DNA of 25,986 nucleotides, taken from a virus. The stretch is from IMG/VR virus record IMGVR_UViG_3300028400_000029, positions 1-25,986 of that record. The stretch is one strand, 5' to 3'. A program made the position numbers and the translations under genes. The notes under the pieces were generated by a model. The model ran no database searches and was not told the origin of the DNA. It was given only the letters and a program-made list of their open reading frames with translations. Within the stretch, counting starts at the first letter, position 1. Each line of letters begins with the position of its first letter. Positions 593-13,721 of this stretch are shown piece by piece.

Positions 593-676
593 CTCTATAC
601 ACGACGGCCGCATTGCGGGCCTCGTTGGGTATCGGTGGCGGGCGGCCCCGGCGGACGCATTGCGGGCCTCGCTGGG
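593..676. repeat. Dispersed repeat, left copy
   Basis: Two copies of GCATTGCGGGCCTCGTTGGG are seen at 610-629 (exact) and 657-676 (one T to C change). A ten-base partial copy lies at 579-588. The 37 bases 593-629 are identical to 5365-5401, so the two intergenic loci share more than the core. The spacer between cores is 27 bases here. No gene covers it convincingly and its role is unknown. Confidence 0.85.
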
Positions 677-868: not shown

Positions 869-1858
869 ATGCTTCGTGACGATGTTCGCTTTTACATCGA
901 GGAGATTCTGGCTGAAGAAAACCAGTTTGGTTTTCGCCTGCCGGGCGATATTGGATACAAGTATCAGCAGGCCATTTCGGCGCTCTTTCCCGGCCTCATT
1001 TCCGGGATTGTGGCCAAGGTGCCGCCCGGCATGACGTGGGAAGAGTATTCGGACAAGCACGGCCAGCCTTGCGTTGTCCGGCGTATCTGGCAGCACGCCG
1101 CCGAAGGGAGCAGCAGCGCCAGGACGGCGGCGTCGATCATTGCCGTCTATGCCGAACCGATGACACACGGCGCGGCCCTCAACACGGCTGAAATGGCACT
1201 GAAAAGCGTCGAAGAGCTCTACAAGACGGCGAGCAGCGAGTTGAACCGCCAGTATTGGCGCGACGCCATGAAGCTGCTCCAGCACATTGTGGCGAACGTG
1301 CATCTTGCCGCCGCCCACAAGGGCGTGGCCACCCCCGACCACAAGATGGCGGGCGTCTATCACAACGTCACGGCATTCATGCGCCTGCGTGGGCTGGCCG
1401 GGCTGAACGCCCTGGAGCAGGCCGTTCTCATTGCGGGCGGCCCGAACGCCTTGAGCGCCGCCTACGGAGCGGATGAATCGAATCCGGAAAATGAAAACCC
1501 GGAAATGAAATCCGCCGAATCGAAAAGCGAAAAACGAAAAGCCCGAATCGAAAAGCCCGAATCGAAATCCGGCAAATCGAAAAGCCGCCACGGCAAAGCC
1601 AAAGAGGAAAAGCCCGAAATGGCGCACGTCGAGATGGTGCTGTCCACTGTCGAGACACGCTGGCACACGATGGCGCTGGAGATGCCCGCCGCCATGGCGG
1701 CGGATAATGACGCCCTGCAAGAGGCCGTCGAGGCCGTGTGGGCGAATGAAGACAACCCGCCCGCTGGCGTGATTGTCCGCGCCTTCGAGGCGGACACGAA
1801 CATGGAAGTGACCGGCGGCCCGGAAATCGAGGAGAAGGAAATCTACAATGCGGAATGA
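869..1858 (+). CDS. Hypothetical protein with Lys/Ser/Glu-rich linker
   Basis: A 329-residue protein of unknown function. I chose the ATG at 869 because GGGAGAAAGAAG lies directly before it; a GTG at 833 would add 12 residues but has no ribosome site. Residues 1-200 look like a folded, helical domain with no motif I recognise. Residues about 203-250 form a low-complexity linker built from repeats such as ESKSEKRKARIEKPESKS, followed by a helical C-terminal part (251-329) with an acidic tail. The DNA of the linker shares 22 identical bases with the region just before the dCMP deaminase gene (1566-1587 and 6321-6342) and contains five GAATC sites. It is the first gene of the rightward operon, overlapping the next gene by 11 bases. 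Confidence 0.8.
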   Translation: MLRDDVRFYIEEILAEENQFGFRLPGDIGYKYQQAISALFPGLISGIVAKVPPGMTWEEYSDKHGQPCVVRRIWQHAAEGSSSARTAASIIAVYAEPMTHGAALNTAEMALKSVEELYKTASSELNRQYWRDAMKLLQHIVANVHLAAAHKGVATPDHKMAGVYHNVTAFMRLRGLAGLNALEQAVLIAGGPNALSAAYGADESNPENENPEMKSAESKSEKRKARIEKPESKSGKSKSRHGKAKEEKPEMAHVEMVLSTVETRWHTMALEMPAAMAADNDALQEAVEAVWANEDNPPAGVIVRAFEADTNMEVTGGPEIEEKEIYNAE

Positions 1859-2135
1859 CGAAAAGCAAAAGCTGATTTTGTGCCGGATCGTCATGACCGG
1901 CGCGAAAAGAGGGCAAGCGGTGGCCTATAGCACCGCACACGGCGGCCTTCTCTTTGTCCGCTATGGGGACGGCTCCGAAGGAACGGAAACGCTCCCCTTG
2001 GCCCTCAAAATCAGCCGCAAGCCGCGCACGGCCAGGGAGCGCGAGAAGTGCCGCGTGCTGGCCGAAGCTGTTGGCGGAAAGACCGTCACGGCAAAAACGT
2101 TCAGGAAAATCGTCGAGAAGGAAATCGGGAAATGA
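1848..2135 (+). CDS. Small basic hypothetical protein
   Basis: A 95-residue protein starting at the ATG at 1848, behind GGAGAAGG, overlapping the end of the previous gene by 11 bases. It ends at a TGA that overlaps the next ATG (ATGA at 2132-2135), so translation is probably coupled. The N-terminal half has beta-like segments (KLILCRIV, GGLLFVRYGDG). The C-terminal half is basic and helical (KISRKPRTAREREKCRVLAE...), which could bind nucleic acid, but that is only a composition argument. No family recognised. Confidence 0.75.
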   Translation: MRNDEKQKLILCRIVMTGAKRGQAVAYSTAHGGLLFVRYGDGSEGTETLPLALKISRKPRTAREREKCRVLAEAVGGKTVTAKTFRKIVEKEIGK

Positions 2136-2905
2136 AAACGCTCAAAACGAAAAGCTACACTGAATATCGCCGCATGGGATATCCCGCCGCGAGGGCGTGG
2201 GAAATGGCCGGAAAGAAGCGTCCCGGCCTTTGGGATGGCCGTGCGTGGTGGATGAATCCACACGACAAGGTGGGCCGGTCAACCAACGTCCCGTCTATCA
2301 TTCACCTGCCGAAAGGTAACCCCATGATCCGGCACATCCATGAAGACGGCACCGGCTGGTATGCCGACGCATTTTGCGACGAAACCTATACCGGCGCGGC
2401 CTTCCAGATGGCCGGGCGGTGGTGGAAGGACTCCGGGGACGCCCTCTATTTCCCCGGATACATCGAGGCCAATGGTGGCTATGCGGTCATTGATCTGTCT
2501 CGCCCCTTCTACGGTGGGCGCGACATGTTCGGAGATGATGAAGAGCGCGACAAGTGCATCCGCACCGGGGCGCGCATGGCCCGCGAGGCCGCCGAAGAAG
2601 CGCGCGAGTATGATGAGCTGTGGCAGTCCGGGGCGCGCACGGCGCACAAGGCAAACAAACTGATTGAAAAACGCCGCCAGCTTTTCGCCCTGCAACAGGT
2701 GCCGCACGGCAAAGCCCTGGACGATCTGGTCACCGAGCTGAAAGAGCGGATCGAAGAAATGGAGGAAGAAATCCGCGAGGCGTTCGAGGGCGTGTGCGAC
2801 GCATATATAGAAAATGCGTGGGAAGCGTTCCGCAACGGATTCGAAGCCGAGGCCAGCCGTGAGGCCGCCAAGGAATGGCTGGGTGAAGAGGAAAAAGCGG
2901 CATGA
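2132..2905 (+). CDS. Hypothetical protein with acidic coiled coil
   Basis: A 257-residue protein. The ATG at 2132 overlaps the preceding TGA and replaces a longer open frame that lacks a ribosome site. Residues 10-30 (EYRRMGYPAARAWEMAGKKR) resemble a short helical element seen at the start of many small phage proteins. Residues 67-130 are rich in aromatic residues and glycine and may form a beta domain. Residues 140-250 are strongly charged and helical, with a likely coiled coil near 195-220 (DLVTELKERIEEMEEEIRE). No catalytic motif is visible and no family is recognised. Coupled to its neighbours by ATGA overlaps at both ends. Confidence 0.8.
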   Translation: MKTLKTKSYTEYRRMGYPAARAWEMAGKKRPGLWDGRAWWMNPHDKVGRSTNVPSIIHLPKGNPMIRHIHEDGTGWYADAFCDETYTGAAFQMAGRWWKDSGDALYFPGYIEANGGYAVIDLSRPFYGGRDMFGDDEERDKCIRTGARMAREAAEEAREYDELWQSGARTAHKANKLIEKRRQLFALQQVPHGKALDDLVTELKERIEEMEEEIREAFEGVCDAYIENAWEAFRNGFEAEASREAAKEWLGEEEKAA

Positions 2906-3414
2906 TTTTCCTTTGCACAACATACGACTATCCAGACGATATTACCATCGTCGAGTCCTTCATGCCAGGGCACAACCCGGCGTGGAAGGTGAACGGCGAG
3001 GCTACGCCGCTGCAACCCGCCGCGTCCATCGAGGGCAATCTGAAATGGGCCGGATGGGGCCGCCTCAAGCGGTGCCGCGACGGGCATGACACGCGCCAAA
3101 TCGTGGCCGATCTGGAAATGGTGGAAACGCTGGCGAACCGAACAGACCAGGACATGCTTGGCCCGCTGAATCGCGAGGCGCTTGACGATTGTATCATTGT
3201 CCTGCCGCTGGAAGAGCTGCGGGAATGGCATGATGATCTGCCGTTCCCGCCGCTGGTGGCGGGGCGATGGGCGCGCGCCTTGGAGAACGCCGCCAGACGG
3301 GCCATTTCCGCCGCGCGCCGGGACGCATGGCGGGCCTGTCGGACGGCCCTGGGCGATGCTTACCGGGCGCTTGATCGCGCCATTGAGCAAACGGAAAAGG
3401 CGCTAGGGCTTTGA
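2902..3414 (+). CDS. Hypothetical protein
   Basis: A 170-residue protein beginning MIFLCTTYDYPDD; the ATG at 2902 overlaps the stop of the gene before. The middle contains LDDCIIVLPLEELREWHDDL. The C-terminus (residues 112-170) is an alanine/arginine-rich helix (ARRAISAARRDAWRACRTAL) that could bind nucleic acid or form a coil. No family recognised. The stop codon lies within TTGACA (3411-3416), immediately before the first copy of the duplicated leader, so this gene probably ends the first part of the operon. Confidence 0.75.
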   Translation: MIFLCTTYDYPDDITIVESFMPGHNPAWKVNGEATPLQPAASIEGNLKWAGWGRLKRCRDGHDTRQIVADLEMVETLANRTDQDMLGPLNREALDDCIIVLPLEELREWHDDLPFPPLVAGRWARALENAARRAISAARRDAWRACRTALGDAYRALDRAIEQTEKALGL

Positions 3415-3464
3415 CACCCTAATGAGTCTGAATCACTAAAAGCGAGGACAAAAAGAATGGCAAA
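3411..3464 (+). promoter_or_regulatory. Duplicated leader, copy 1, with paired GANTC sites
   Basis: Bases 3424-3464 match 4598-4638 at 40 of 41 positions, from GAGTCTGAATCACTAAAAGC through the ribosome site GAGGAC into the first codons (ATGGCAAA). Each copy has two GANTC sites one base apart (here GAGTC 3424-3428 and GAATC 3430-3434) inside an imperfect palindrome. A perfect TTGACA (3411-3416) lies upstream in this copy only. The best -10 candidates are weak (CACTAA or ACTAAA) and would place the transcription start on the ribosome site. An operator or translational leader is therefore as likely as a promoter. Confidence 0.6.
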
Positions 3465-4128
3465 GATTGTTATCCCCAAATTCTGGACTGGCATGTTCGA
3501 CTGGCGGGAGCGCCGCCAGATCGACAAAATCCGGCAAGATCGCGCCGCCTTGGCGGCGTATATCGAAGAGTGGGAAGCGAGGTGCGCCAGGCGGGCGCGT
3601 GAAAACGCGGTCACGCGAATCCCGTGGACGCATATCGTCTGGAGGCCCTCATGGCTCCGCGACTATGACGGCACCACCACGTGGTGGTGGCTCATGGGGC
3701 CGAATGCGGCGGCGTTTGATCGCCGCGACAAGATGGACATGGACAAGGCGCTCCGGGCGCGTTTCATTCGCGGCGAGCCGTGGCAGGCCGCCGCGGAATG
3801 GATAAGCTATAAGCCGCTCCGGCAGATGCTGGCGGCGTCATGGCAGCATCTGGACGACATTGCCGCCCGGTTGGCCACCTGCCACCTTACGGCACGCGAT
3901 GTGCATGACGATCGCGTGTCAACGTGGGCGCGCCGGGAGCATTTCGGGAAATGGGTCATGGAGCCCCCCGAAACATATCGTGATCTTGCCTGCGACCTGT
4001 CCGACGCCCTGTTTTCCGGGCCGCTGGCCCTGGACAGGGACGATCCGCTGTGGGCGTTCACCGGCCCCGAAGGCCCCGCGCAGGACACGCCGGGGCAAGA
4101 GGAAGCCGCCCCCGGAGAAATGGCATGA
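3457..4128 (+). CDS. Hypothetical protein with Trp-rich centre
   Basis: A 223-residue protein starting MAKIVIPKFWTGMFDW behind GAGGACAAAAAGA in the duplicated leader. The N-terminal 50 residues are basic and helical. Residues 55-80 are unusually tryptophan-rich (PWTHIVWRPSWLRDYDG then TWWWLMG). The tail (about 205-223) is Pro/Gly/Glu-rich and probably disordered. It overlaps the next gene by ATGA at 4125-4128. No hydrophobic stretch is long enough to be a clear membrane segment. No family recognised. Confidence 0.75.
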   Translation: MAKIVIPKFWTGMFDWRERRQIDKIRQDRAALAAYIEEWEARCARRARENAVTRIPWTHIVWRPSWLRDYDGTTTWWWLMGPNAAAFDRRDKMDMDKALRARFIRGEPWQAAAEWISYKPLRQMLAASWQHLDDIAARLATCHLTARDVHDDRVSTWARREHFGKWVMEPPETYRDLACDLSDALFSGPLALDRDDPLWAFTGPEGPAQDTPGQEEAAPGEMA

Positions 4129-4613
4129 GTCAATATCCCGTCATGTTCTATGCGTCTGCCAGCGGGGAGATCGTTCCAGCTGGCGAGACAGATCAGGCGC
4201 TGGCGTGGGGCCAGTCCGGGCGGCTCATGGACTGGCGGACAAAGGGCGGGGAGCCCCTGGAGCCGGTGGGAATGTTCTTTCCGGCTCAATTGGAATACGC
4301 GCCATTCCGGCATGAATGCCGCCACGCCGTGCGCCGGGCGAAAGAGCAGCGCGCCGCAAGGCTTCGCGTATTGCGCAATCGTGAGGCGGCGGCACGCGCG
4401 CTATGGGCAACGCTGGACACGCGCACCACGGGATGCGCCACGGCGGCGGAGCGGTTCGCCGTGCTGCGTGACGTGCTGGTCTATGGCGTCCCCGTGAGCC
4501 AGGCGGCGGAGCGTCACCGCCCGGAATCCGCCGCGCCTGAAACGTGGGCGCGCGACATGCGCCGTTTCATTCAGCGGCTCCGCGAGGGGGGCTTGGTGAG
4601 TCAGAATCACTAA
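4125..4613 (+). CDS. Hypothetical protein with HTH-like C-terminus (possible KorA/TrfB-like)
   Basis: A 162-residue protein whose ATG overlaps the previous stop. Residues about 112-150 (AVLRDVLVYGVPVSQAAERH then WARDMRRFIQRL) have the spacing of a helix-turn-helix. They recall the KorA/TrfB pattern 'ARxVLVxGxxxxxAA...V...V.RV', in which the segment after GVPVSQAAE would be the turn and recognition helix. This is a by-eye resemblance only. The last residues, VSQNH, and the stop codon are supplied by copy 2 of the duplicated leader, which suggests the leader was inserted or duplicated into the end of this gene. If it is a DNA-binding regulator, the adjacent palindromic leaders are natural targets. 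Confidence 0.75.
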   Translation: MSQYPVMFYASASGEIVPAGETDQALAWGQSGRLMDWRTKGGEPLEPVGMFFPAQLEYAPFRHECRHAVRRAKEQRAARLRVLRNREAAARALWATLDTRTTGCATAAERFAVLRDVLVYGVPVSQAAERHRPESAAPETWARDMRRFIQRLREGGLVSQNH

Positions 4614-4638
4614 AAGCGAGGACAAAAAGAATGGCAAA
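4598..4638 (+). promoter_or_regulatory. Duplicated leader, copy 2, with paired GANTC sites
   Basis: Second copy of the 41-base leader, differing from copy 1 at one base. GAGTC (4598-4602) and GAATC (4604-4608) lie in GTGAGTCAGAATCAC, an imperfect palindrome in which six of seven base pairs match about the centre. It carries the ribosome site GAGGAC and start codon of the next gene. It overlaps the 3' end of the gene before, and no TTGACA is present here. Confidence 0.65.
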
Positions 4639-4915
4639 ACCGATCATCAGTTACGCTTTGCATGTTTATGCGCCTGGCAAAGCGCCGCGAACGTTCATCA
4701 TTGGCGCGCGCGGCTGGTCTGCGCGAGATGGTGGCCGCCGCCTCTATCTGGAAGGGCGGTTTTATGGGCGCGACGTGAGCGACGCCTGTTACAGCCCGAT
4801 CCGGGCGGCGGAAATGCTTGCCGGATATGCGCCCAAACAGGTGATTTATACGCTGGCGTCGGATGTGAAAACACGCAAGATGTTCAGGGCGTTCAGCGCC
4901 CCTGTGGTGCGATGA
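4631..4915 (+). CDS. Small hypothetical protein
   Basis: A 94-residue protein starting MAKPIISYALHVYAPGKAPR at the ATG supplied by the duplicated leader; a longer open frame from 4544 has no support. It appears to be a small alpha/beta domain: strands at YALHVYA and TFIIGARG, an extended RLYLEGRFYG, and a helix SPIRAAEMLAG. No family recognised. Its TGA overlaps the ATG of a 38-codon membrane ORF at 4912. Confidence 0.75.
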   Translation: MAKPIISYALHVYAPGKAPRTFIIGARGWSARDGGRRLYLEGRFYGRDVSDACYSPIRAAEMLAGYAPKQVIYTLASDVKTRKMFRAFSAPVVR

Positions 4916-5028
4916 AACGCCTTGCCGCCATAATAGGCGCAGCGGTGCTGGCCGCCATATTCTGGCGGGACTGGACAACGCTTCTCGCCGCCGCCGCCGT
5001 AGGGGCGCTTTTGATCCCCCTGCTGTGA
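4912..5028 (+). CDS. 38-residue hydrophobic membrane microprotein
   Basis: An ATG at 4912 overlapping the preceding TGA (ATGA) opens a 38-codon frame, MKRLAAIIGAAVLAAIFW followed by RDWTTLLAAAAVGALLIPLL, ending TGA at 5026-5028. Two hydrophobic stretches (about residues 4-18 and 22-38) separated by a charged RDW turn make a helical hairpin or one long membrane segment, with positive residues at the N-terminus. The overlap spacing is the same as throughout the operon, which supports translation. It is the last gene before a terminator. A role as a small membrane effector or holin-like peptide is possible but unproven. Confidence 0.6.
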   Translation: MKRLAAIIGAAVLAAIFWRDWTTLLAAAAVGALLIPLL

Positions 5029-5035
5029 CGAAATG

Positions 5036-5070
5036 AAAAACCGTCTGGCGGAAAGGCCAGGCGGCTTTTC
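5036..5070. terminator. Bidirectional terminator
   Basis: CCGTCTGGC (5041-5049) pairs with GCCAGGCGG (5056-5064) across a six-base loop. It is followed by CTTTTC on the plus strand and, read leftward, by five T (5040-5036). It closes the 869-5028 operon rightward and would end a leftward transcript started near 5141. Confidence 0.8.
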
Positions 5071-5141
5071 CGCGCCCCCAAAGCTACGGGAAAGGCGGCC
5101 AGCCCCGCAAGACTGACCGCCTTTGACCTTACCACCCGGAT
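5036..5141 (-). ncRNA. Candidate leftward small RNA, about 105 nt
   Basis: On the minus strand TTGACA (5177-5172), an 18-base spacer and TATTGT (5153-5148) make a reasonable promoter with a start near 5141. The transcript would contain a perfect eight-pair stem (5117-5124 with 5091-5098) and finish at the bidirectional terminator hairpin and T-run at 5064-5036. No open frame with a ribosome site lies inside, so a non-coding RNA is the simplest reading. It is antisense to nothing annotated. Confidence 0.4.
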
Positions 5142-5185
5142 GCGCCCACAATAAGCCGCGAGGCGGCGGCCTGTCAACGTGATCT

Positions 5186-5226
5186 GCCCTTGTCGCAATA
5201 CCACAGCCTGCGGCAAGGGCTTTTTG
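5186..5226 (+). terminator. Rho-independent terminator
   Basis: GCCCTTGTCGC (5186-5196) pairs with GCGGCAAGGGC (5210-5220), eleven pairs with one G-T, followed by TTTTT. No gene ends directly before it; it may be a back-up terminator for the 869-5028 operon. Confidence 0.75.
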
Positions 5227-5241
5227 CTTGCGGCCAGGGCC

Positions 5242-5339
5242 TTGACAAGCCTGCCCGCCCCGTGGCATTCTCCAGATGCGTTTTCATGTGGGTTTCCCCC
5301 TATCTCGACTGGCCCGGCCTTGCGCCGGGCTTTTCTTTT
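5242..5339 (+). ncRNA. Candidate short transcription unit 1
   Basis: TTGACA at 5242-5247 is followed after 18 bases by CATTCT (5266-5271), a weak -10. Only about 60 bases later comes a terminator: GCCCGGC (5312-5318), loop CTTGC, GCCGGGC (5324-5330), then TTTTCTTTT. Nothing coding fits between. The same layout recurs at 5529-5634 with an almost identical terminator. Confidence 0.35.
5312..5339 (+). terminator. Rho-independent terminator
   Basis: Seven G-C pairs, GCCCGGC (5312-5318) and GCCGGGC (5324-5330), with loop CTTGC and a TTTTCTTTT tail. The same stem and loop recur at 5607-5625. Confidence 0.8.
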
Positions 5340-5364
5340 GTCCGGCTTTCGCTTTGGCGGATCC

Positions 5365-5508
5365 CTCTATACACGACGGCCGCATTGCGGGCCTCGTTGG
5401 GACTCGACGCCACCAAACAGCCGCATTGCGGGCCTCGTTGGGCATCGGCAACGACGCATTGCGGGCCTCGTTGGGCATCGGCAACGACGCATTGCGGGCC
5501 TCGTTGGG
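5365..5508. repeat. Dispersed repeat, right copy: four 20-bp cores
   Basis: Four exact copies of GCATTGCGGGCCTCGTTGGG lie at 5382-5401, 5423-5442, 5456-5475 and 5489-5508. Copies 2 to 4 recur every 33 bases with identical 13-base spacers; the first spacer is 21 bases. The 33-base unit contains TCGTTG and CAACGA arms around GGCATCGG, a possible small hairpin. Bases 5365-5401 are identical to 593-629. Spacers are not unique, so it is not a CRISPR array; iterons, a partition-like site or a small mobile repeat are options. Confidence 0.9.
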
Positions 5509-5528
5509 ACTCGACGCTCGGAAGGCGC

Positions 5529-5634
5529 TTGACAGGCCCGTCCGTGCGTGGCACACTGGCCTTGCGATTGATTCAGGATGACTCCTTTGGACTGAACCTC
5601 CGACTTGCCCGGCCTTGCGCCGGGCATTTCTTTT
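5529..5634 (+). ncRNA. Candidate short transcription unit 2
   Basis: TTGACA (5529-5534), 17 bases, CACACT (5552-5557, weak -10), then about 45 bases to a terminator hairpin at 5607-5625 (GCCCGGC, loop CTTGC, GCCGGGC) with ATTTCTTTT. The sequence around the -10 (GTGGCACACT) resembles that of unit 1 (GTGGCATTCT), as if the units are related. Two GANTC sites (5570-5574, 5580-5584) lie inside. Confidence 0.35.
5607..5634 (+). terminator. Rho-independent terminator
   Basis: GCCCGGC (5607-5613), loop CTTGC, GCCGGGC (5619-5625), tail ATTTCTTTT. Stem and loop are identical to the terminator at 5312-5330. Confidence 0.75.
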
Positions 5635-5643
5635 CCGGCGGGC

Positions 5644-5807
5644 TTGACATCGCGCCGGGGGCCGCTGTATCGTCGGCTTCGCAAGCGAACGCCTGCCCGA
5701 AACGACCGCCTTCCCGCTTTCTCCCTTTGGTTGCGAATGGCTCGGGTGGGTAGCCAACCCCCGTCTCGCGTCTTTGGGGGCTCCACGCGAGACGGGGGAT
5801 TCTATTT
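5644..5807 (+). ncRNA. Candidate structured small RNA, about 125 nt
   Basis: TTGACA (5644-5649), 18 bases and TATCGT (5668-5673) form the best promoter of the cluster; the start would be near 5680. The transcript could fold into TGGCT/AGCCA (5738-5742 with 5752-5756). It ends in a 14-pair hairpin (5758-5771 with 5785-5798) whose 13-base loop is CTTTGGGGGCTCC, followed by ATTCTATTT. No ribosome-linked open frame is seen. Alternatively the hairpin simply isolates the next operon from upstream transcription. Confidence 0.45.
5758..5807 (+). terminator. Strong hairpin terminator
   Basis: A perfect 14-pair stem, CCCCCGTCTCGCGT (5758-5771) with its complement at 5785-5798, is followed by a T-rich tail. 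It separates the short-transcript region from the next operon. Confidence 0.75.
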
Positions 5808-5829
5808 ACGGAACATGTCAAATAAGGGC

Positions 5830-5858
5830 TTGCAGCCTTGCACAGGTTTTGCTAGGGT
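5830..5858 (+). promoter_or_regulatory. Candidate promoter of the 5895-14520 operon
   Basis: TTGCAG (5830-5835), 17 bases and TAGGGT (5853-5858) lie between the strong terminator and the first gene of the operon. This is the natural place for its promoter, although the -10 is only a three-of-six match. Confidence 0.35.
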
Positions 5859-5894
5859 TTCTTCACCGGCAACACCTATCGAGGCGAAAGCACA

Positions 5895-6287
5895 ATGTGC
5901 GGAACAGACCCCACGGCGCCAGAGACAACTTCACGCGTATCCATTCGCGAGGAGTCCCAATCATACTGTGGCGCAATGCCGCAAGGCGATCGCCTCGCAA
6001 AAGACGTGGCGCGGATTGTGCGCGCGATGAAAGTCCTCGCCGCGCGCCTCTGCGTCGCCCCCGTGCCCCGGTTGTCTGTTCCCGGGGCACGGGATCCCCA
6101 CATGGAATTCCTGCTCAAAGCACTTGGCCGGTTACTGGCCCGGAACACCACGTCTCCGCGCAACTGGACGACGCTTGCCGTGCGCGCCCAAGGCGCCGGA
6201 GCGCATTTTGAGGACGCCAGCCGTCTGTTCTTTCGCGCGGCCAAAGCGGCGCGCCGAGGGTCAACGGAGACACGCGCAAAGCGTTGA
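5895..6287 (+). CDS. Hypothetical protein
   Basis: A 130-residue frame from the ATG at 5895, with GAGGCG about nine bases before it, ending TGA at 6285. The product is basic and Ala/Arg-rich. Residues 30-55 (GDRLAKDVARIVRAMKVLAA) and 70-85 (MEFLLKALGRLLAR) look like amphipathic helices, and the C-terminus (RLFFRAAKAARRGSTETRAKR) is strongly positive. No motif is recognised. It follows a predicted promoter and no competing frame has a better start, so I accept it, with less certainty than the overlapping genes elsewhere. Confidence 0.5.
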   Translation: MCGTDPTAPETTSRVSIREESQSYCGAMPQGDRLAKDVARIVRAMKVLAARLCVAPVPRLSVPGARDPHMEFLLKALGRLLARNTTSPRNWTTLAVRAQGAGAHFEDASRLFFRAAKAARRGSTETRAKR

Positions 6288-6373
6288 GATCAAATCAGAA
6301 ATTTGAAAACCTGAAAATGGAATCCGGCAAATCGAAAAGCCGGAATCGAAAAGCCAGAGAGGGAAAGCGGAAA

Positions 6374-6871
6374 ATGAAAAAGCCGGAATCGAAAAGCTGG
6401 CCACCAGAGGCGGGAGGTGAAAAGCGGCTGACGCCGTATCAATGGGATTGGCGTTTCATGAACTTGGCCCGGCACATCGCCGGATGGTCCAAAGACCCGT
6501 CAACGCAATGCGGCGCGGTCATCACGCGCCCCGACAAGACCATCGCATCGGTCGGCTATAACGGATTCCCGCGAGGGATTCGCGACGATACGCGCCTTGG
6601 AAATCGGAAAGCCAAGTATATCGCCGTCGTTCATGCCGAGATGAATGCCATCCTGAATGCGCATGAGCGCGACCTCTCCGGCATGTCCCTCTACGTGTGG
6701 CCCATCGCCCCGTGCGAAAGCTGTGCAAAACATATCGTTCAGACGGGCATTTCCTCTGTCATCATCATGCCGGACATCCCGCCCCGGTGGGACGCCAGCA
6801 TCACCGCCGGGCTCGCCCTGTTTTCTGAATCCGGTGTAGAAGTTCGTGTCATGACGAAATCCGTGGGGTAA
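6374..6871 (+). CDS. dCMP deaminase (zinc-dependent)
   Basis: A 165-residue deoxycytidylate deaminase-like protein. This family converts dCMP to dUMP, feeding dTMP synthesis in the phage's nucleotide pool. The zinc site is intact: HAE at residues 87-89 supplies the histidine ligand and proton-shuttling glutamate, and PCESC at 113-117 supplies the two cysteines. GYNGFPRG (61-68) is typical of the family, as is the N-terminal core around DPSTQCGAVI. I chose the ATG at 6374 because GAGAGGGAAAGCGG precedes it. Upstream in-frame ATG (6317) or TTG (6284) starts would add a Lys/Ser-rich tail made of the same low-complexity DNA found in the 869 gene. dCMP deaminase is more likely than cytidine or tRNA deaminase because of the GYNGFPRG segment. 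Confidence 0.9.
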   Translation: MKKPESKSWPPEAGGEKRLTPYQWDWRFMNLARHIAGWSKDPSTQCGAVITRPDKTIASVGYNGFPRGIRDDTRLGNRKAKYIAVVHAEMNAILNAHERDLSGMSLYVWPIAPCESCAKHIVQTGISSVIIMPDIPPRWDASITAGLALFSESGVEVRVMTKSVG

Positions 6872-6876
6872 AAGCC

Positions 6877-7158
6877 ATGCCGCCTGTTCCACATCTCAAA
6901 TATACGCGCCGCAGCACCTCGGTTCTGGAGATCGACGCAGGCGGCGCAGCGATAGTTGAGGCCCACGGCGACGGGCTCGCCATAGACCGCCTCTTGGAGG
7001 CCCTGGAGGCGCGCGACAACGCCTTGTGGGAGTGGGAGGAGTGGAAAAGCGCAGACGTGATAGCAGAAGTTCGCTGCGCCTTCATGGCCGCCGTCAAGGC
7101 TCGTTTTCCGGCGAAGGAGGCGGAGCGGTTGATCGAGATGTTGAGGGACTTGCCATGA
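6877..7158 (+). CDS. Small hypothetical protein
   Basis: A 93-residue protein from the ATG at 6877, six bases after the deaminase frame and with only a weak ribosome site. Residues 12-35 look like two short strands ([20 protein letters not shown]). The rest is helical and acidic ([19 protein letters not shown]), ending in a basic helix. It ends at a TGA overlapping the next ATG. No family recognised. Confidence 0.65.
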
Positions 7159-7661
7159 CCAGCCGCATTCCCCTTGACAGGCATGGCGAGCGCCACGCGC
7201 TTGTCTCTGACAGGGATTACCACTGGCTGACGGCCCTCGGCCTCTGGCACGCTTCACCAGGCGCCGCAGGCAACCTCTATGCGCGCCGGATCATCACGCT
7301 GGATTCCGGAAAACGCTCGGTGCTGTATATGCACCGGGCGATCGTAAAGCCGCCCATGGGCTATGTCGTCGATCATATCAATGGCGACAGCCTCGACAAC
7401 CGGCGGGAAAACCTGCGCGTCTGCACGGTGCGGGAGAACACCGCCAACAGGGCGTTCGCCACGGCTTGCGGGTTTCACGGAGTGCGCAAGCACGGCGCGC
7501 GCTGGCAAGCCCGTCTTCTCGGCAAGAGCCTCGGCATGTTCGATACGGCGGAGGAAGCGGCGCGGGCATGGGATGCCGCGGCGATTGCCCGGTTTGGGGA
7601 GTTCGCCCGGCTGAATTTCCCCCGTGAGCGGCCTCCGGAGCCGCAGGAGCCGCCATTCTAG
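7155..7661 (+). CDS. HNH endonuclease with AP2 DNA-binding domain
   Basis: A 168-residue homing-type endonuclease. The HNH part is at about 59-100: MHRAI, then [20 protein letters not shown] with the conserved DH-N and NxxxNLR pattern. It is followed by NTANR and an AP2-like domain at about 107-155 ([15 protein letters not shown], then [18 protein letters not shown] and LNFP). Such HNH-AP2 proteins are common freestanding genes in phages and usually spread themselves by cutting alleles that lack them. The ATG overlaps the previous stop; a longer upstream frame is not supported. It sits before the adenine methyltransferase. It appears intact, though a role as a general nicking endonuclease cannot be excluded. 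Confidence 0.9.
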
Positions 7662-7674
7662 GAGAACCGGCAGG

Positions 7675-8559
7675 ATGACACTGCACATTTTCAAATCGCC
7701 GCTCCGGGAGGCCCTGGAGCCCCGGCAGGAAAAGCCAAAGCCACCACGCAAGGAGCACATGGTGACGCCGCTCCGCTATCCGGGCGGGAAGGTCTGGCTG
7801 GCCGAGGTAGCGGAAGCGTGGGCCGCCACGCACGGGCGCAAGGCGCTGCTGGAGGGCTTTGCCGGTGGCGCGTCGGTGGGGCTGTATCTCATGAGCCGCC
7901 GCGCCATCCAGAGGCTGTTCCTCGTCGATCTGGACAAGCGCGTTACGCGCTTCTGGAAAATCCTGTTCGAGTATCCGGCAGCCCACGCCAAGCAGGTCAT
8001 CAAGCGCATCGAGACGTTCACCCCGGAAGAGGCGGAACTCCGCGCCGCGCTAAGCCGCCGGTGGGACACTCCGGCGGACTACGCCTTTGCCGTGCTGGTC
8101 CAGAACCGCTTTGCGGCGTCTGGAATTCTGGATTTTGGAAAGAGCCTGCGCAAATCCGGCTACAGGAATCGCGGCCTTGAGAGCATGTGGTATCCGGAAA
8201 CGCTGGCCGAGCGGATTGAAAACCTCATGGCTTTCCGGAGCAGGGTGCATGTGGCATGTGAAAACTTCTATGGGGTGTTCGTTCCCGAGAATGCCGCTGT
8301 CTATCTCGACCCGCCATACCCGTCCGCCGGGAAGCGCCTCTATGCGGAATCCGCGCATGATCTTAACGACTTAACCGCATGGCTTGCCGCTCACCGGGAC
8401 ACGCCGACGCTGGTCACGTATGAGGATGTGGGGGCCGAACCTTTCGAGCGCGCCGGACTGGCCGCGGCGCGCGTCGCCATGCAGTCCGGCAAGGCGGAAG
8501 TGAGGCGTGAGATTGTCGCAGCCTCTCACCACTCAACAGTGCTGGAGGGGGTGCTGTGA
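7675..8559 (+). CDS. Dam-type (D12 class) N6-adenine DNA methyltransferase
   Basis: A 294-residue enzyme expected to transfer a methyl group from S-adenosylmethionine to adenine in DNA. Motif order fits the D12 class: PLRYPGGK (32-39), FAGGAS for cofactor binding (62-67), the acidic VDLDKRV (84-90), and catalytic DPPY (212-215). The start at 7675 has AGGAG about ten bases upstream; an internal ATG at residue 29 (MVTPLRYPGGK) is an alternative. Residues 1-28 are not part of the family core. Its last bases form the GTGA overlap with the cytosine methyltransferase gene. With no restriction enzyme nearby it is an orphan, probably protecting phage DNA or altering host methylation. Target site unknown. 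Confidence 0.9.
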   Translation: MTLHIFKSPLREALEPRQEKPKPPRKEHMVTPLRYPGGKVWLAEVAEAWAATHGRKALLEGFAGGASVGLYLMSRRAIQRLFLVDLDKRVTRFWKILFEYPAAHAKQVIKRIETFTPEEAELRAALSRRWDTPADYAFAVLVQNRFAASGILDFGKSLRKSGYRNRGLESMWYPETLAERIENLMAFRSRVHVACENFYGVFVPENAAVYLDPPYPSAGKRLYAESAHDLNDLTAWLAAHRDTPTLVTYEDVGAEPFERAGLAAARVAMQSGKAEVRREIVAASHHSTVLEGVL

Positions 8560-9617
8560 AGTATTTGTCGCTATTCTCCGGCATTGAGGCGGCATCAGTG
8601 GCGTGGGAGCCTCTAGGTTTTGACCCGGTGGCTTTTGCGGAGATCGAACCTTTCCCCTGCGCCGTGCTGGCCAAGCACTTTCCGCACGTTCCGAATCTTG
8701 GAGATGTGAATGATTATCGAGAGTGGCCTGATATGGCTGTTGACCTCATCGTTGGAGGAAGCCCCTGTCAGTCGTTTTCCGTGGCCGGACTCCGTGGAGG
8801 GCTGGCTGACGAGCGAGGAAACCTGGCCCTCGTTTTCTGCCGCATTGTGCAGCGCTACAAGCCTCGATGGGTGTTGTGGGAAAATGTCCCCGGCGCGCTT
8901 TCCGTTGAGCGAGGCGCCGCCTTCGGGTCCATCCTCTCGGCGCTGGATGAAATCGGGTATGGTCTGGCGTGGCGAGTGCTTGACACTCAATACGTCCGAG
9001 TGCGCGGCTTCCCCAGAGCTATCCCGCAAAGACGAAAGCGTCTCTTCCTTGTGGGAAGTCTTGGAGACTGGCGAGGTGCAGGAGCGGTATTATTTGACCG
9101 CGAAAGCTGCCGCCGGGATACTCCGCCGCGCCGACGCAAAGAAAATCCGGCTGCCGGAAAGTTATCGCGAGATGCTAGAGCGCCGGAAAGCCGAATGATC
9201 CACGAGACAGCGTGGACTTTGCAAGCTTGTTTCGGGAAGAAACAAGGCTTGGAGGATCAGCACGTCAGAGCCGGAATGCCGATGTTTGTTCCCGCCGCAG
9301 CTCGTGGACTGACACGCCGGGGAGGGCGTGATGCTTTTGGCGGAAATGGCGTTACCATTTTTACGGACCCAAGAGACTTAAGGCTTCGCAAATTGACGCC
9401 AACCGAGGCGGAGCGCCTGCAAGGTTTCCCGGATGGCTGGACTGCCGTTCGATACCGGGGCCGTCCCGCCTGCGATTCTCCACGCTACGCCGCCCTTGGA
9501 AACTCCATGTCGGTAAACGTCATGCGGTGGTTAGGGGAGCGTATTCAGATGGTGGACGAGAAAATGAAGGAGCTGAACAATGGAAACGAATCGGGAAGCG
9601 ACAGAGGCCGAGCTTGA
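8556..9617 (+). CDS. C5-cytosine DNA methyltransferase
   Basis: A 353-residue enzyme expected to methylate cytosine at C5. It starts at a GTG overlapping the previous stop (GTGA). Family motifs in order: LFSGIEAAS (motif I, 6-14), GGSPCQSFS with catalytic Cys71 (motif IV), ENV (109-111, motif VI), PQRRKRLFLVG (157-167, motif VIII), and TPTEAERLQGFP plus GNSMSVN (281-321, motifs IX and X). All key residues are present, so it should be active. The target-recognition stretch (about 180-270) is short. A 162-codon frame (8710-9198) lies wholly inside it in another frame and is listed separately. Phage orphan enzymes of this kind usually block host restriction. Confidence 0.92.
   Translation: MKYLSLFSGIEAASVAWEPLGFDPVAFAEIEPFPCAVLAKHFPHVPNLGDVNDYREWPDMAVDLIVGGSPCQSFSVAGLRGGLADERGNLALVFCRIVQRYKPRWVLWENVPGALSVERGAAFGSILSALDEIGYGLAWRVLDTQYVRVRGFPRAIPQRRKRLFLVGSLGDWRGAGAVLFDRESCRRDTPPRRRKENPAAGKLSRDARAPESRMIHETAWTLQACFGKKQGLEDQHVRAGMPMFVPAAARGLTRRGGRDAFGGNGVTIFTDPRDLRLRKLTPTEAERLQGFPDGWTAVRYRGRPACDSPRYAALGNSMSVNVMRWLGERIQMVDEKMKELNNGNESGSDRGRA
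8710..9198 (+). CDS. Possible overprinted gene inside the cytosine methyltransferase
   Basis: A 162-codon frame beginning at an ATG (8710) with GGAG eight bases before it, wholly inside the methyltransferase gene. Its product has features I recall in separately annotated proteins of many tailed phages. These are a Ser/Pro-rich start (LTSSLEEAPVSRF), then KSGMVWRGECLTLNTSE, then SSLWEVLETGEVQERYYLTA and AAAGILRRADAKK. In those proteins the end typically reads 'SLSDILETGDVPxRYYLSxKAxxGILRRAEKRGKxLP'. The methyltransferase frame over the same bases is also conserved, so either both frames are translated or database entries are shadows of the methyltransferase. Function unknown. Confidence in translation is modest. 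Confidence 0.4.
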   Translation: MIIESGLIWLLTSSLEEAPVSRFPWPDSVEGWLTSEETWPSFSAALCSATSLDGCCGKMSPARFPLSEAPPSGPSSRRWMKSGMVWRGECLTLNTSECAASPELSRKDESVSSLWEVLETGEVQERYYLTAKAAAGILRRADAKKIRLPESYREMLERRKAE

Positions 9618-9822
9618 AGTCCTGCGGGCGGAGCTTGCGCACGCCGAGGACACGCTGCGCCGCCTCGAACACGCCGACTACATGGCCTCGATGTCTGACA
9701 ATCGCTACGCCACCTCCGGGCGTGCCAACGAGGCCGGAAACAAGATTCTGGAGATGAGAAAGCGCGTCTCCGAATTGAAAAACCGCATAGCGGATCTCGA
9801 AAGTTGGGGGCCACCCTATTGA
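9580..9822 (+). CDS. Small coiled-coil protein
   Basis: An 80-residue protein from the ATG at 9580, with AAGGAG upstream inside the end of the methyltransferase gene (38-base overlap). Residues 1-30 (EAELEVLRAELAHAEDTLRRLEHA) and 51-74 (KILEMRKRVSELKNRIADLE) have heptad spacing and likely form an antiparallel coiled-coil hairpin around a middle segment. No family recognised; many phages have such small coiled-coil genes among early genes. Confidence 0.75.
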   Translation: METNREATEAELEVLRAELAHAEDTLRRLEHADYMASMSDNRYATSGRANEAGNKILEMRKRVSELKNRIADLESWGPPY

Positions 9823-9876
9823 CCGGCGCCGCTTCATGTGCATAAATGTGAAAACCGGCAACACAGCGAGGCGATC

Positions 9877-10464
9877 ATGACCAAATTCACCATGCTTGCG
9901 GTGATTGATTCCGACGGCGGCGTTTACGCTCCCGAGGAAATCAATCACGTTCAAGCAATCCAGATGTCCCGGACGAAATCCTATCGGCGTCCGGTTGTGC
10001 TGTCTCTCCGGCACTGGAAGGCCAACTCGAATTGCGTCCATGGGCGCAAATATTTTCTGTGCCTCGACCCCTACCAGAAGCTGCCGCGGCCCCGGCAGAT
10101 GACCTTCTGCGTCAATTGGGAGGCCACGTTGTATTCCGCCGCGCGCGCCGCGGAGGACAACGGCTCGGGAGAGGTGGTCTGCATTGTCGAGCGCGAGGCG
10201 TGGCCGCGGGTCTTTCAGGCCATCCGGAACCTCGATGCCACGGAAGTTCGTCTTGAACTCATCGGGACCTTCGGATCGCTCCCGTATCGCGACCCGCCGA
10301 ACGGGGTGGCGCGCCCGGGCCTCGATCTGGCCTGCGCGATCGGATGCAAGCCGCCCGCGCCGATGCGCCGCATATCGCCTACCCGCCGCTGCGGATTTCA
10401 CACAAAGACGAAATACGCCGTTTCCATTGCCAGCATGAGAAAGGAAATCGAAGAAGATGTCTGA
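9877..10464 (+). CDS. Hypothetical protein
   Basis: A 195-residue protein. I chose the ATG at 9877 because GCGAGGCG precedes it; a GTG at 9838 would add 13 residues with no ribosome site. The N-terminal half looks like a mixed alpha/beta domain (TMLAVIDSDGGVYAPEEINH, then RPVVLSLRHW and KYFLCLDP). The part SGEVVCIVEREAWPRVFQAIRNLDATEVRLELIG could be a strand-helix-strand unit. The C-terminal 45 residues are basic with two cysteines. No catalytic motif is recognised. It overlaps the next gene by eight bases. Confidence 0.75.
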   Translation: MTKFTMLAVIDSDGGVYAPEEINHVQAIQMSRTKSYRRPVVLSLRHWKANSNCVHGRKYFLCLDPYQKLPRPRQMTFCVNWEATLYSAARAAEDNGSGEVVCIVEREAWPRVFQAIRNLDATEVRLELIGTFGSLPYRDPPNGVARPGLDLACAIGCKPPAPMRRISPTRRCGFHTKTKYAVSIASMRKEIEEDV

Positions 10465-11941
10465 CCCGAAAAAGATTCACGGGGAGAAAAAGCCGCCCCT
10501 CGACGCCACTCCGCCCATCGGCATTTTCACGATGGCGATGGCCATGGAAGACGGCGCGGGCAAGTATGGCCCGATGAACTACCGGGAGAGCAAGATTTGC
10601 GCCAGGACCTACTACAACGCCGCCATGCGCCATTGGATGGCGTGGTGGGACGGCGAAGACCTCGCGGACGATTCCGGCGTTCATCATCTCGGGCACGCCA
10701 TGGCTTGCGCGTGCATCATCCTCGACGCGCAGGCGTCCGGCACCCTGATCGACGACAGGCCCCCGAAGGGGAAGTTGGCGGATTGGCTGAAAGCCCACAA
10801 GAAAGACGACGAGCCGAACCCCGCCGCCGTGTATGGGCACCGCAGCACTCTTTCCGGCATGGCCGATTCATCGAGCGACAGATCGGCGTCATTTCCAGAG
10901 ACGAAACTCTGGAGAGCCGAAGCTCGTATCCCTGTCGCAAAGCCCGCCCGCGTGGCAGAAAATTCCGGCGTGTCCAAGCAGGATGCAGAGCGTATCGCTG
11001 ACACCGTTCAGAAGAAGCCGGACGCACAGCGCCCTGATCATGGCCTGCACTTTCCGCGGGCGCACATGAGCGCCCTCTTGGCGGGGACGGCGGCACCTTT
11101 CGCGCGCACCTTCCCGGAGGTCATGATCCGCACAAAGCACGTCATTATGGCCATGGCGGACGCTGGACTGCTGGACAAAACGGCAATCGAAAAGATGCCG
11201 GATGTTCTGGCCGCCCCTTCCCGGCGGGAGGATGTTTCGCGCAAGGAGTTCGTGGAGGCTGTCAACCTCATGGCGCTCCTCCTGACAGACTTCAAAGCGG
11301 CTATTTTCCGCCGGGTGTGGCTTGACTACGCCGCCCCCGTCCCCGGGAAGTGGAACACCATCAACCCCATGGCGAAAGCGCAGGCGACACAGGAGCATTG
11401 GCGGTTCATCTATCTGGCTGCGCCCATGTCCAATGTAAGGGATTTCAACTTCCCGTTCCTGTATTCCGCCGAGTGGGAATACGCCTTGCAACAGGCGGAT
11501 GATTCCCTGTGGCCCTTCAACCCTGCACGCGCGGCCAGACTGGATTCCGGAATGCATGCCGCGCCTGACGCCCTTTCCCCCGAAGGGGATCACAGCAAAC
11601 TCTCCGACGCCTACAACATCCGCAACGTCATGAGGCGGAATCTGGACTGGCTGACCACATACGCGGATGTTGTCCGGGTCCAATTCCCGGTCAGCGAAAA
11701 CTCGAAGGGCGTGGCTGCCGAATTGGCCGTGGCAAAGGCTATCGGAATCCCCGTGGCGCAGGCCAGACCTCACGACCATTGGTGCCGCGTAGCGGCGCGC
11801 AAGGACGTTCCGCTGGCGCTGCTGCCTTTCCTCGGCCCGATGACGGATTTCGAGCGGGAGGCGTATGACAGCGTTTCGCGCAACAGCCAAACCATGTTCT
11901 GCAAACCTCGCAGAAAAGACAAGGAGCGAAAAAATGTCTGA
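10457..11941 (+). CDS. dATP/dGTP diphosphohydrolase-like and deoxyribosyltransferase-like fusion
   Basis: A 494-residue protein that seems to join two nucleotide-related domains. Residues about 33-103 resemble the 'dATP/dGTP diphosphohydrolase N-terminal' family of phages. The pattern is KYGPMNYRE, a helix with YYNAAMRHWMAWWDGEDLADD, GVHHLGHAMACA, and DDRP. Residues about 316-436 resemble DUF4406/nucleoside 2-deoxyribosyltransferase-like domains: FIYLAAPMS at the start, LWPFNPAR, YADVVRVQF, and SENSKGVAAELAVAKAIGIPV, where Glu422 would be the conserved nucleophile-like glutamate. The middle (about 120-315) is helical and unassigned. The ATG at 10457 overlaps the gene before by eight bases. 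The context (dCMP deaminase, methyltransferases) fits control of the dNTP pool. Substrate unknown. Confidence 0.75.
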   Translation: MSDPKKIHGEKKPPLDATPPIGIFTMAMAMEDGAGKYGPMNYRESKICARTYYNAAMRHWMAWWDGEDLADDSGVHHLGHAMACACIILDAQASGTLIDDRPPKGKLADWLKAHKKDDEPNPAAVYGHRSTLSGMADSSSDRSASFPETKLWRAEARIPVAKPARVAENSGVSKQDAERIADTVQKKPDAQRPDHGLHFPRAHMSALLAGTAAPFARTFPEVMIRTKHVIMAMADAGLLDKTAIEKMPDVLAAPSRREDVSRKEFVEAVNLMALLLTDFKAAIFRRVWLDYAAPVPGKWNTINPMAKAQATQEHWRFIYLAAPMSNVRDFNFPFLYSAEWEYALQQADDSLWPFNPARAARLDSGMHAAPDALSPEGDHSKLSDAYNIRNVMRRNLDWLTTYADVVRVQFPVSENSKGVAAELAVAKAIGIPVAQARPHDHWCRVAARKDVPLALLPFLGPMTDFEREAYDSVSRNSQTMFCKPRRKDKERKNV

Positions 11942-12233
11942 CGATTCCAAGATCATCAACCTGAACGGCAATTCCGCCACCGTGCTGCGCCGCCTCGTCG
12001 AGCGCATCGAAAACCTGGAGGAGGAGAAACGCGCCATCGCCGCCGACATCAAGGAGGTCTATGCCGAGGCCAAAGGCTCCGGCTTCGACACGAAAGCCTT
12101 GCGGAAGGTCATCGCGCAGCGCCGCCAGGATCAGCACGAGCTGGAAGAGCAGCAAGCCATGATCGACCTCTACCTGCAAGTGCTGGCCGCGCCCGTGAAT
12201 ACGGACGGCGAAGATGAGGAGGATATGCTGTGA
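11934..12233 (+). CDS. GapR-like (DUF2312) DNA-binding protein
   Basis: A 99-residue protein matching the GapR/DUF2312 pattern almost throughout: LVERIENLEEEKRAIAADIK (21-40), EVYAEAKGSGFDTKALRKVI (41-60), and QRRQDQHELEEQQAMIDLY (62-80). In alphaproteobacteria GapR is an abundant nucleoid protein that wraps overtwisted AT-rich DNA ahead of replication forks and transcription and is needed for a normal cell cycle. A phage copy may organise phage DNA or compete with the host protein. The ATG at 11934 has AAGGAG ten bases upstream and overlaps the gene before. The acidic tail (DGEDEEDML) goes beyond the family core. This is one of the strongest host clues in the window. Confidence 0.9.
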   Translation: MSDDSKIINLNGNSATVLRRLVERIENLEEEKRAIAADIKEVYAEAKGSGFDTKALRKVIAQRRQDQHELEEQQAMIDLYLQVLAAPVNTDGEDEEDML

Positions 12234-12547
12234 AGAACATCCTGTTCGGATTCATGTCAACGCTCATGGCGTTTTTGAGCGGCGTCATGTGGGCTTTCGC
12301 GTTTCTGCTCTACAATGCCCCTGATGGCGGCTTTGACGCCCCAACGGCGGCTGCTGCCGTTGGCTCTTTCCTTGCCATGGGGATGTCATGGCTTTTCAGA
12401 CCTATCGAAAAGAGCGCGCGGCGACACACAGGCGGCGCACAGCCGCTGAGTCGCCATCCTCGGGCACGGACACACGTCAGCACGAGAGACGGCGCTGTGG
12501 CGCCGGGAGATGACCGCTGGTGGGAGGATTACCAATGGAAGGGCTAA
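12230..12547 (+). CDS. Small membrane protein, two predicted helices
   Basis: A 105-residue protein starting at a GTG that overlaps the previous TGA (GTGA), with AGGAGGAT upstream. Residues 5-28 (LFGFMSTLMAFLSGVMWAFA and on) and about 38-57 (APTAAAAVGSFLAMGMSWLF) are hydrophobic and likely span the membrane. The C-terminal half is charged, probably cytoplasmic, and ends with a tryptophan-rich DDRWWEDYQW. The topology resembles small holins, but it lies in the early operon far from the lysis genes, so an unknown membrane role is as likely. Confidence 0.7.
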   Translation: MKNILFGFMSTLMAFLSGVMWAFAFLLYNAPDGGFDAPTAAAAVGSFLAMGMSWLFRPIEKSARRHTGGAQPLSRHPRARTHVSTRDGAVAPGDDRWWEDYQWKG

Positions 12548-13116
12548 TGCCACCTACGCCCCTGCAACGCCAGATGGCGCGCAAATGGCTGGCGGCGACG
12601 GAAGATGAGCGAGCACTCACTTCCGAGCGCCAGCAGATCGCGCACCTGAAAGCGGCCCTCGCCTGCGTCCAGTATGACGCGGCAATGCTTGAGCAGGACA
12701 AACTCGGCACAAACGAACTGATGCGCCTGTGGGGCCGCCCCTCGAAGCATGCCAAAGAAAACGCCAGAACGCAGCCTGTGGCTGCCACCATTGACGCCTT
12801 CGCGCGCGCTGTGGCGGAGGAACTCACCGTGCCGGTAGAGTCCCTCTACTCGGCGGACAGGCGGCCTGCCGTGTGCGCGGCCCGGTATGCCGCATGGGCG
12901 TTGGCTTATGCCATGTCGAGCCTCCCGGTGAGCCTGTCTGATCTTGGAGCGGCATTCAACAGGCACCATACGACGATCCTGCACGGGATCGACCAGGTGC
13001 TGACGAACAAAACCGCCCGGCAGGTAGCCCTCCGTGTGGCGCATAGGCTCCAGCGGCAGGATCAATTCCGGCAGTGGCTGAAAGACCACGCCGCGCGTGA
13101 CAGGGGGGCGGCATGA
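12535..13116 (+). CDS. DnaA domain IV-like DNA-binding protein
   Basis: A 193-residue protein whose C-terminal half resembles the DNA-binding domain IV of the replication initiator DnaA. The core is at about 87-160: AVAEELTVPVESLYSADRR, a helix with ARYAAWALAYAM, LSDLGAAFNRHHTTILHGI, and a final helix. FNRHHTTILHGI (141-152) corresponds to the DnaA signature 'RDHTTVxxA' that reads the DnaA box. The N-terminal half is helical, unlike DnaA, and no AAA+ ATPase motif is present. It could therefore bind DnaA boxes without initiating by itself. I chose the ATG at 12535 (GGGAGGATTACCA upstream); it overlaps the membrane-protein gene by 13 bases. Role inferred: origin recognition or interference with host DnaA. 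Confidence 0.85.
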   Translation: MEGLMPPTPLQRQMARKWLAATEDERALTSERQQIAHLKAALACVQYDAAMLEQDKLGTNELMRLWGRPSKHAKENARTQPVAATIDAFARAVAEELTVPVESLYSADRRPAVCAARYAAWALAYAMSSLPVSLSDLGAAFNRHHTTILHGIDQVLTNKTARQVALRVAHRLQRQDQFRQWLKDHAARDRGAA

Positions 13117-13721
13117 CGGACAATAACACACCGCCGTTCCCCGCCGGGAAGTTCAAGGTCATCCTTGCCGACCCGCCGTGGGATTTCCGCGTCCGCTCCC
13201 CGAAGGGGGCTGGCCGGAGCGCCTCACAGCACTATGGCACGATGCCGACAAAGGACATTTGCGCCCTGCCAGTAGCCGATCTGGCGGACAAGGATTGCGC
13301 TTTGTTCCTGTGGGCCACTGGAACAATGCTCCCGGATGCTTTCGAGGTCATGAAGGCGTGGGGCTTCACCTACAAATCCATGGCCTTCACGTGGATCAAG
13401 GTGAACAAGGACGGGGAGACGCCGTTCACCGGCATGGGGTTCTGGACGCGCCAGAATGCCGAGTATGTCCTGCTTGGCACACGGGGCCGCCCCAAGCGCC
13501 TGTCGGCGTCTGTGCACCAGGTGGTGCTCGACAGGCGCATGAAGCACAGCCGCAAACCTGACGAGGTTCACAGGCGCATCCAGCAGCTCATATCCGGCCC
13601 CTATATCGAACTCTTCGCGCGCCGCCCCTTTCCGGGATGGGCCGTGTGGGGCAACGAGCTCTCGCCGGAAGTGATGCAGGAATCCGCCGTGCATGCGCTT
13701 GCCATGGGGGAGGTCTTGTGA
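13113..13721 (+). CDS. MT-A70 family adenine methyltransferase
   Basis: A 202-residue protein of the MT-A70 family, which uses S-adenosylmethionine to methylate the N6 of adenine; phage members are thought to act on DNA. Catalytic DPPW is at 20-23 within FKVILADPPWDF. Typical later segments are YGTMPTKDICALPV, CALFLWATGTML, WGFTYKSMAFTWIK, GFWTRQNAEYVLLGTRG, and the C-terminal SRKPDEVHRRI, ELFARRPFPGWAVWGNE. Length and motif order fit a complete enzyme. ATGA overlap with the DnaA-like gene and TGATG junction with the GcrA-like gene show tight co-translation. This is the third DNA methyltransferase of the operon; its target is unknown. Confidence 0.92.
   Translation: MTDNNTPPFPAGKFKVILADPPWDFRVRSPKGAGRSASQHYGTMPTKDICALPVADLADKDCALFLWATGTMLPDAFEVMKAWGFTYKSMAFTWIKVNKDGETPFTGMGFWTRQNAEYVLLGTRGRPKRLSASVHQVVLDRRMKHSRKPDEVHRRIQQLISGPYIELFARRPFPGWAVWGNELSPEVMQESAVHALAMGEVL

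Follow-up and report, generated by a model that had tools for sequence, protein, structure and literature searches.

Short promoter–terminator units between two operons of a phage genome fragment: a candidate small-RNA locus

To our knowledge, phage small RNAs have rarely been predicted from sequence alone, and hardly ever in phages of alphaproteobacteria. Described examples include OOP and PreS of lambda, VpdS of VP882, 24B_1 of phi24B and sar of P22 (reviewed in PMC12197685). The locus considered here resembles them in that its predicted products are short and non-coding, and several of those RNAs likewise have their own promoter, but it differs in holding three to five predicted units in a single gap of 780 bases together with a conserved repeat array. 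It also resembles the late leader pR'-tR' of lambda (6S RNA; antiterminator Q), where a strong promoter, a short leader and a strong terminator precede an operon on the same strand. Unlike at pR'-tR', no Q-like gene was recognised, the units stand in series, and the genes downstream form a mixed early/middle block rather than lysis genes. The alphaproteobacterial small RNAs SorX, a product of RNase E cleavage of a 3' UTR (PMC6238624), and MmgR/suhB share with the gap units a GC-rich terminator hairpin after a C/U-rich stretch, but the gap units score only about half the curated threshold.

The window, i.e., the whole stretch of DNA analysed, is the IMG/VR fragment IMGVR_UViG_3300028400_000029 of 25,986 bases. 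The late genes, oriented leftward, span 25986 to about 14517 and encode tail assembly proteins, a hub protein and an endolysin; the hub protein is ~30% identical to those of Casjensviridae, e.g., Achromobacter phage phiAxp-2. Two operons run rightward, operon 1 at about 869–5027 and operon 2 at about 5895–14520, and their products include a dCMP deaminase, an HNH endonuclease, DNA methyltransferases, homologs of GapR and GcrA, and a DnaA C-terminal domain protein. The GapR and GcrA homologs point to an alphaproteobacterial host, and the source is a new Chi-like siphophage, with an alphaproteobacterium as the probable host. When the hub protein was used to look for the host, none of 385 alphaproteobacterial genomes had a match at E 1e-30; a set of 200 genomes from a single family yielded one remote hit (28% identity). 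Alphaproteobacterial cell-cycle and nucleoid homologs stand together in one operon, namely GapR (11865–12233), the DnaA C-terminal (DNA-binding) domain protein (12547–13116), GcrA (13637–14275) and an MT-A70-type methyltransferase (13113–13721). Besides, two 42-base stretches that are 98% identical (TGAGTCWGAATCACTAAAAGCGAGGACAAAAAGAATGGCAAA; 3423–3464 and 4597–4638) precede the genes at 3457 and 4631 and represent a duplicated translation start region.

Layout and non-randomness of the gap

The gap of ~780 bases between operon 1 and operon 2 contains four exact TTGACA promoter candidates, at 5242, 5529 and 5644 on the forward strand (units R1, R2 and R3) and at 5177 on the reverse strand (unit L), as well as a weaker unit, R0. 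It also contains five T-tailed hairpins, at 5041–5064, 5186–5220, 5311–5331, 5606–5626 and 5758–5798. The one leftward and three rightward promoters and the five hairpin terminators reported in an earlier note on this DNA were all located. The features are as follows, including a related array outside the gap.

594–676, forward strand: second array of the 20-base repeat found in the gap (GCATTGCNNRCCYCRTTGGG), copies at 610 and 657, upstream of operon 1
5041–5064, forward strand: operon 1 terminator, 9-bp stem, −17.6 kcal/mol; the operon 1 stop codon is at 5027
5036–5177, reverse strand: predicted unit L, TTGACA 5177–5172, 18 nt, TATTGT 5153–5148; predicted RNA from about 5141 to 5036
5123–5226, forward strand: predicted unit R0, TTGACC at 5123, 18 nt, CACAAT; predicted RNA about 5159–5226
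5242–5340, forward strand: predicted unit R1, TTGACA at 5242, 18 nt, CATTCT; predicted RNA about 5278–5340
5366–5508, forward strand: array of four 20-base direct repeats (GCATTGCGGGCCTCGTTGGG), copies at 5382, 5423, 5456 and 5489, spacing 41, 33 and 33
5529–5635, forward strand: predicted unit R2, TTGACA at 5529, 17 nt, CACACT; predicted RNA about 5565–5635
5644–5809, forward strand: predicted unit R3, TTGACA at 5644, 18 nt, TATCGT; predicted RNA about 5680–5809
5840–5868, forward strand: candidate separate promoter of operon 2, TTGCAG ... TGCTAGGGT, read by eye; the first gene starts at 5895

The hairpin at 5041–5064 primarily serves operon 1, but it is bidirectional, and in leftward use (5068–5037, −13.8 to −16.2 kcal/mol on the reverse strand) it would end unit L. 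The promoter of unit L is a 10/12 match, and its RNA has a fold of −55.9 (z −3.6), with G–U pairs on the reverse strand that are mismatches on the opposite strand. R0 ends in the 12-bp stem at 5186–5220, a hairpin otherwise without an assigned unit. R1 and R2 end in identical hairpins, GCCCGGC-CTTGC-GCCGGGC, at 5312–5330 and 5607–5625, while the terminator of R3 (5758–5798) has a 14-bp stem and −30 kcal/mol. L, R0, R1 and R2 fold better than their shuffles.

The short-unit architecture is real and lies far beyond chance. A unit was defined as TTGAC, 16–18 nt, xAxxxT, and then a hairpin of −12 kcal/mol or lower with a T tail 30–150 nt past the start. Five units in the window match this rule, R0 and the four from the first reading, all within 5123–5810, and none occurs in the other 25 kb, a result that holds when the thresholds are varied. 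When the region was dinucleotide-shuffled 3000 times, no unit appeared in 2967 cases and one unit in 33; shuffles of the whole window gave a mean of 0.2 units, and 1.35 Mb of other loci, mostly from related phages, held seven scattered units. The earlier note had seen no ribosome-linked frames inside the units, which agrees with the absence of any gap ORF with coding-like codon use. The long ORFs through the gap score −0.06 to −0.27 per codon, versus 0.0 to 0.32 for genes, and a coding role for them is ruled out by these scores.

R1 and R2 had also been described as looking duplicated, with one stem-loop in common, and the comparison bears this out: the hairpins with their flanks (P<0.001) and the promoters (P=0.003) are alike, whereas the bodies are not (P=0.98). 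The exact hairpin core is rare: of 385 alphaproteobacterial genomes, 4 contain it, each a single time. Its presence twice in the gap, at a distance of 295 bases, is therefore best explained by duplication.

A related genome and the 20-base repeat

IMG/VR was scanned for TTGACA followed 50–80 bases on by GCCCGGCN5GCCGGGC, and among the 36 contigs returned was IMGVR_UViG_3300028030_000044 (G615; coordinates are given on the reversed contig). This relative was recovered only via the promoter–terminator pattern, having been missed by the first protein searches, and a search with a 75%-identical early protein returned it alone again. None of the relatives in the hub alignment (25–37% identity) has the gap, and a DNA-level search of the gap against phages and plasmids gave no match. 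The comparison is one of two genomes. G615 is syntenic with nearly the whole window, with identities of 75% for the hub, 77% for the MT-A70 protein, 76% for the deaminase and 59% for the GapR-like protein. Because the unit rule was shaped on the gap region, G615 provides the fairer test: its orthologous gap holds two units by the rule, R2' and R3', and at least one unit arose in 26 of 3000 shuffles.

The order in the G615 gap is operon 1 terminator, R0-like hairpin, four repeats, R2', R3' and operon 2. The operon 1 terminator (6631–6651) is placed as in the window, and at the place of R0 there is a hairpin (6698–6723) with a poorer promoter. R2' has TTGACA at 7088, a spacing of 17 and a hairpin core identical to that of R2, while R3' has TTGACA at 7194, a spacing of 18 and an equally strong GC-rich hairpin (−31.1 kcal/mol) whose sequence differs from that of R3. 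The promoter spacings of 17 and 18 are kept between the two phages while the spacer sequence has changed. After the repeat array, conservation between window and relative was highest for the R2 terminator (z=5.8), followed by the R3 promoter (3.5) and the R2 promoter (2.7); the body of R2 is not conserved (z=0.2) and that of R3 little (z=2.0), with local tests at P 0.34–0.87. Predicted promoter positions, terminators and the repeat array are conserved in the two genomes, and the predicted RNA bodies are not. No counterpart of R1 or L was seen in the G615 gap, and R1, as read from the two genomes, is a duplicate present only in the window. At the place that R1 occupies in the window, G615 has three tandem 28-base palindromic repeats (TGACGCTGGAACATAGCGTCACCCGCCAG; 6737–6820, L155), which the window lacks.

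The repeat array, overlooked in the first reading, ends 20 bases before the −35 of R2. G615 has four copies at the equivalent place (array 6950–7070; 6950, 6985, 7018 and 7051, spacing 35, 33 and 33), of which 17–18 of 20 bases are identical to the copies of the window (array z=14.5), with diverged spacers. Copies are alike within one phage, indicating concerted change, and the 33-base phase is kept in both phages. The repeat also occurs upstream of operon 1 in G615 (3544 and 3581; 3544–3600). Given its presence before operon 1 in both phages, the 20-base repeat is most likely the binding site of a phage regulator. The exact 20-mer had no match in IMG/VR; a single match, due to chance, was obtained among 85,000 species genomes and falls within a GAPDH-like gene. 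Also upstream of operon 1 (260–510 in the window, 3390–3450 in G615), both phages have several GGTTAACG/GGTAAACG-like motifs, which are possible operator sites.

Small RNAs, terminated leaders and other readings

At the sequence level, the units show what marks an independently transcribed small-RNA gene, a short non-coding body flanked by a promoter of its own and an intrinsic terminator. We propose that each unit would be started at its TTGACA promoter by the host sigma-70-type RNA polymerase and its transcript stopped 60–130 bases on by its own hairpin, and that short RNAs would accumulate. Very probably, short RNAs are indeed made from the gap units; the chances that they have a trans-acting function are about even. 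At least R2 may pair with ribosome-binding sites via its CU-rich stretch CUCCUUU and CCUCC, and R2' via CCUCCC. The targets would mostly be host mRNAs, and the bodies would therefore change fast. The array just upstream of R2 would bind a phage regulator that also acts before operon 1. Anti-Shine-Dalgarno pairing was above shuffles for R2 (P=0.045) and R2' (P=0.016), values that are marginal after counting the tests made, and not above shuffles in the other units; the signal is suggestive only. Target prediction against phage mRNAs, a check put forward in the earlier note, covered the window's own genes, and no target exceeded the shuffles: the unit bodies paired with the translation starts of these genes no better than shuffled sequences did. 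Similar promoters and terminators around different bodies, as in R1 and R2, would fit sibling small RNAs by analogy.

An Rfam search of the gap returned no family at its threshold. SorX (RF02784) scored 26.1, 25.9 and 27.0 bits for R1, R2 and R2' against a gathering threshold of 46.6, and MmgR/suhB (RF00519) scored 20.2, 13.4 and 22.1 against 41 bits. Terminators of protein genes with similar hairpins reached 22.0–31.5 bits with SorX, equalling the scores of the units, so the resemblance to SorX is driven by the terminator. Membership in either family was rejected, as the scores are below threshold and control terminators score alike.

Fixed promoters and terminators with unconserved bodies fit fast-evolving small RNAs, but they also fit terminated leaders of the lambda pR'-tR' type. 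Here R3, and perhaps R2, would be the true promoters of operon 2, the hairpins would stop the polymerase until a phage antiterminator acts, and the short RNA would be a by-product of irrelevant sequence. Though unlikely on balance in our view, this rival has to be taken seriously, most of all at R3, whose promoter, short leader and terminator lie directly upstream of operon 2 in both phages. In both, R2, R3 and operon 2 follow one another on the same strand, and units of the same shape occur in other contigs of the scan (L114, L118, L122, L125, L127, L135 and L145), directly before holin or endolysin genes where the gene was identified (L118, L125, L127 and L145); by analogy, they resemble late promoters of the lambda type that are followed by a terminated leader. 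The unit of L127 lies just after a Q-like antiterminator gene (phrog_127, E=1.4e-12). On the other hand, PHROG, Pfam and NCBIfam matches gave no antiterminator in operon 1 of this contig, which is a fragment, and operon 2 has a possible separate promoter past the last hairpin. The TTG...TGCTA of that candidate recurs in G615, in a region whose conservation is not above shuffles (z=1.0). Several independent units in series and the leftward unit L would also be left unexplained.

Three further readings are less probable. Four or five strong hairpins between operons of the same direction, in both phages, could be a terminator stack that insulates the operons, with incidental promoter-like sites; this is improbable, as G615 has TTGACA at equal places with equal spacing, every TTGACA follows directly on the terminator before it or on the repeat array, and no shuffle produced five such units. 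The repeats might instead be iterons of a replication origin that the short transcripts open or prime, for which only transcription and not RNA sequence would matter. The number of repeats and their 33-base phase are conserved while the spacers diverged, and the phage encodes a DnaA C-terminal domain protein, but the second array before operon 1 suits a regulator site better, and the lack of an AT-rich unwinding region and of a DnaA-box match in the window makes an origin a decidedly poor candidate. Racr, an RNA anti-CRISPR (PMC10651486), is likewise known to take the form of a short non-coding RNA transcribed from a promoter within an intergenic gap; on this reading, one unit would carry a mimic of a CRISPR repeat (solitary repeat unit). 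This is very improbable, since no Rfam CRISPR family was matched in the gap even at E=10 and the orthologous bodies keep no repeat-like sequence.

Among the contigs of the scan, a near-identical unit of 53–54 nt (body CCCATCCTAGAAATTGTCACTTCA) occurs in L114 (4719–4795), L122 (653–730, reverse strand), L125 (6893–6970, reverse strand), L135 (4773–4849) and L145 (2063–2140). A phrog_3373-type gene, for which a match was obtained in L125 and L145, lies on one side of it and a holin gene on the other. It is probably a late leader of the lambda pR'-tR' type, and phrog_3373 is perhaps an unrecognised antiterminator.

Meaning of the locus

The earlier note had read the gap as a small-RNA locus between two operons. 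Its short non-coding units stand, being non-random and partly conserved, and their products may act as small RNAs. We hold the reading of the gap as a small-RNA locus, with three to five short non-coding units between rightward operons, to be evenly poised between right and wrong. A more far-reaching and doubtful version is a phage small-RNA cassette whose promoter, terminator and regulator-bound array would be kept while its bodies are duplicated and replaced fast, giving lineage-specific, host-targeting RNAs at one fixed site.

Overall, the closely packed units are not a product of chance, a second genome retains part of them, and the shared repeat array suggests that their control is coordinated.
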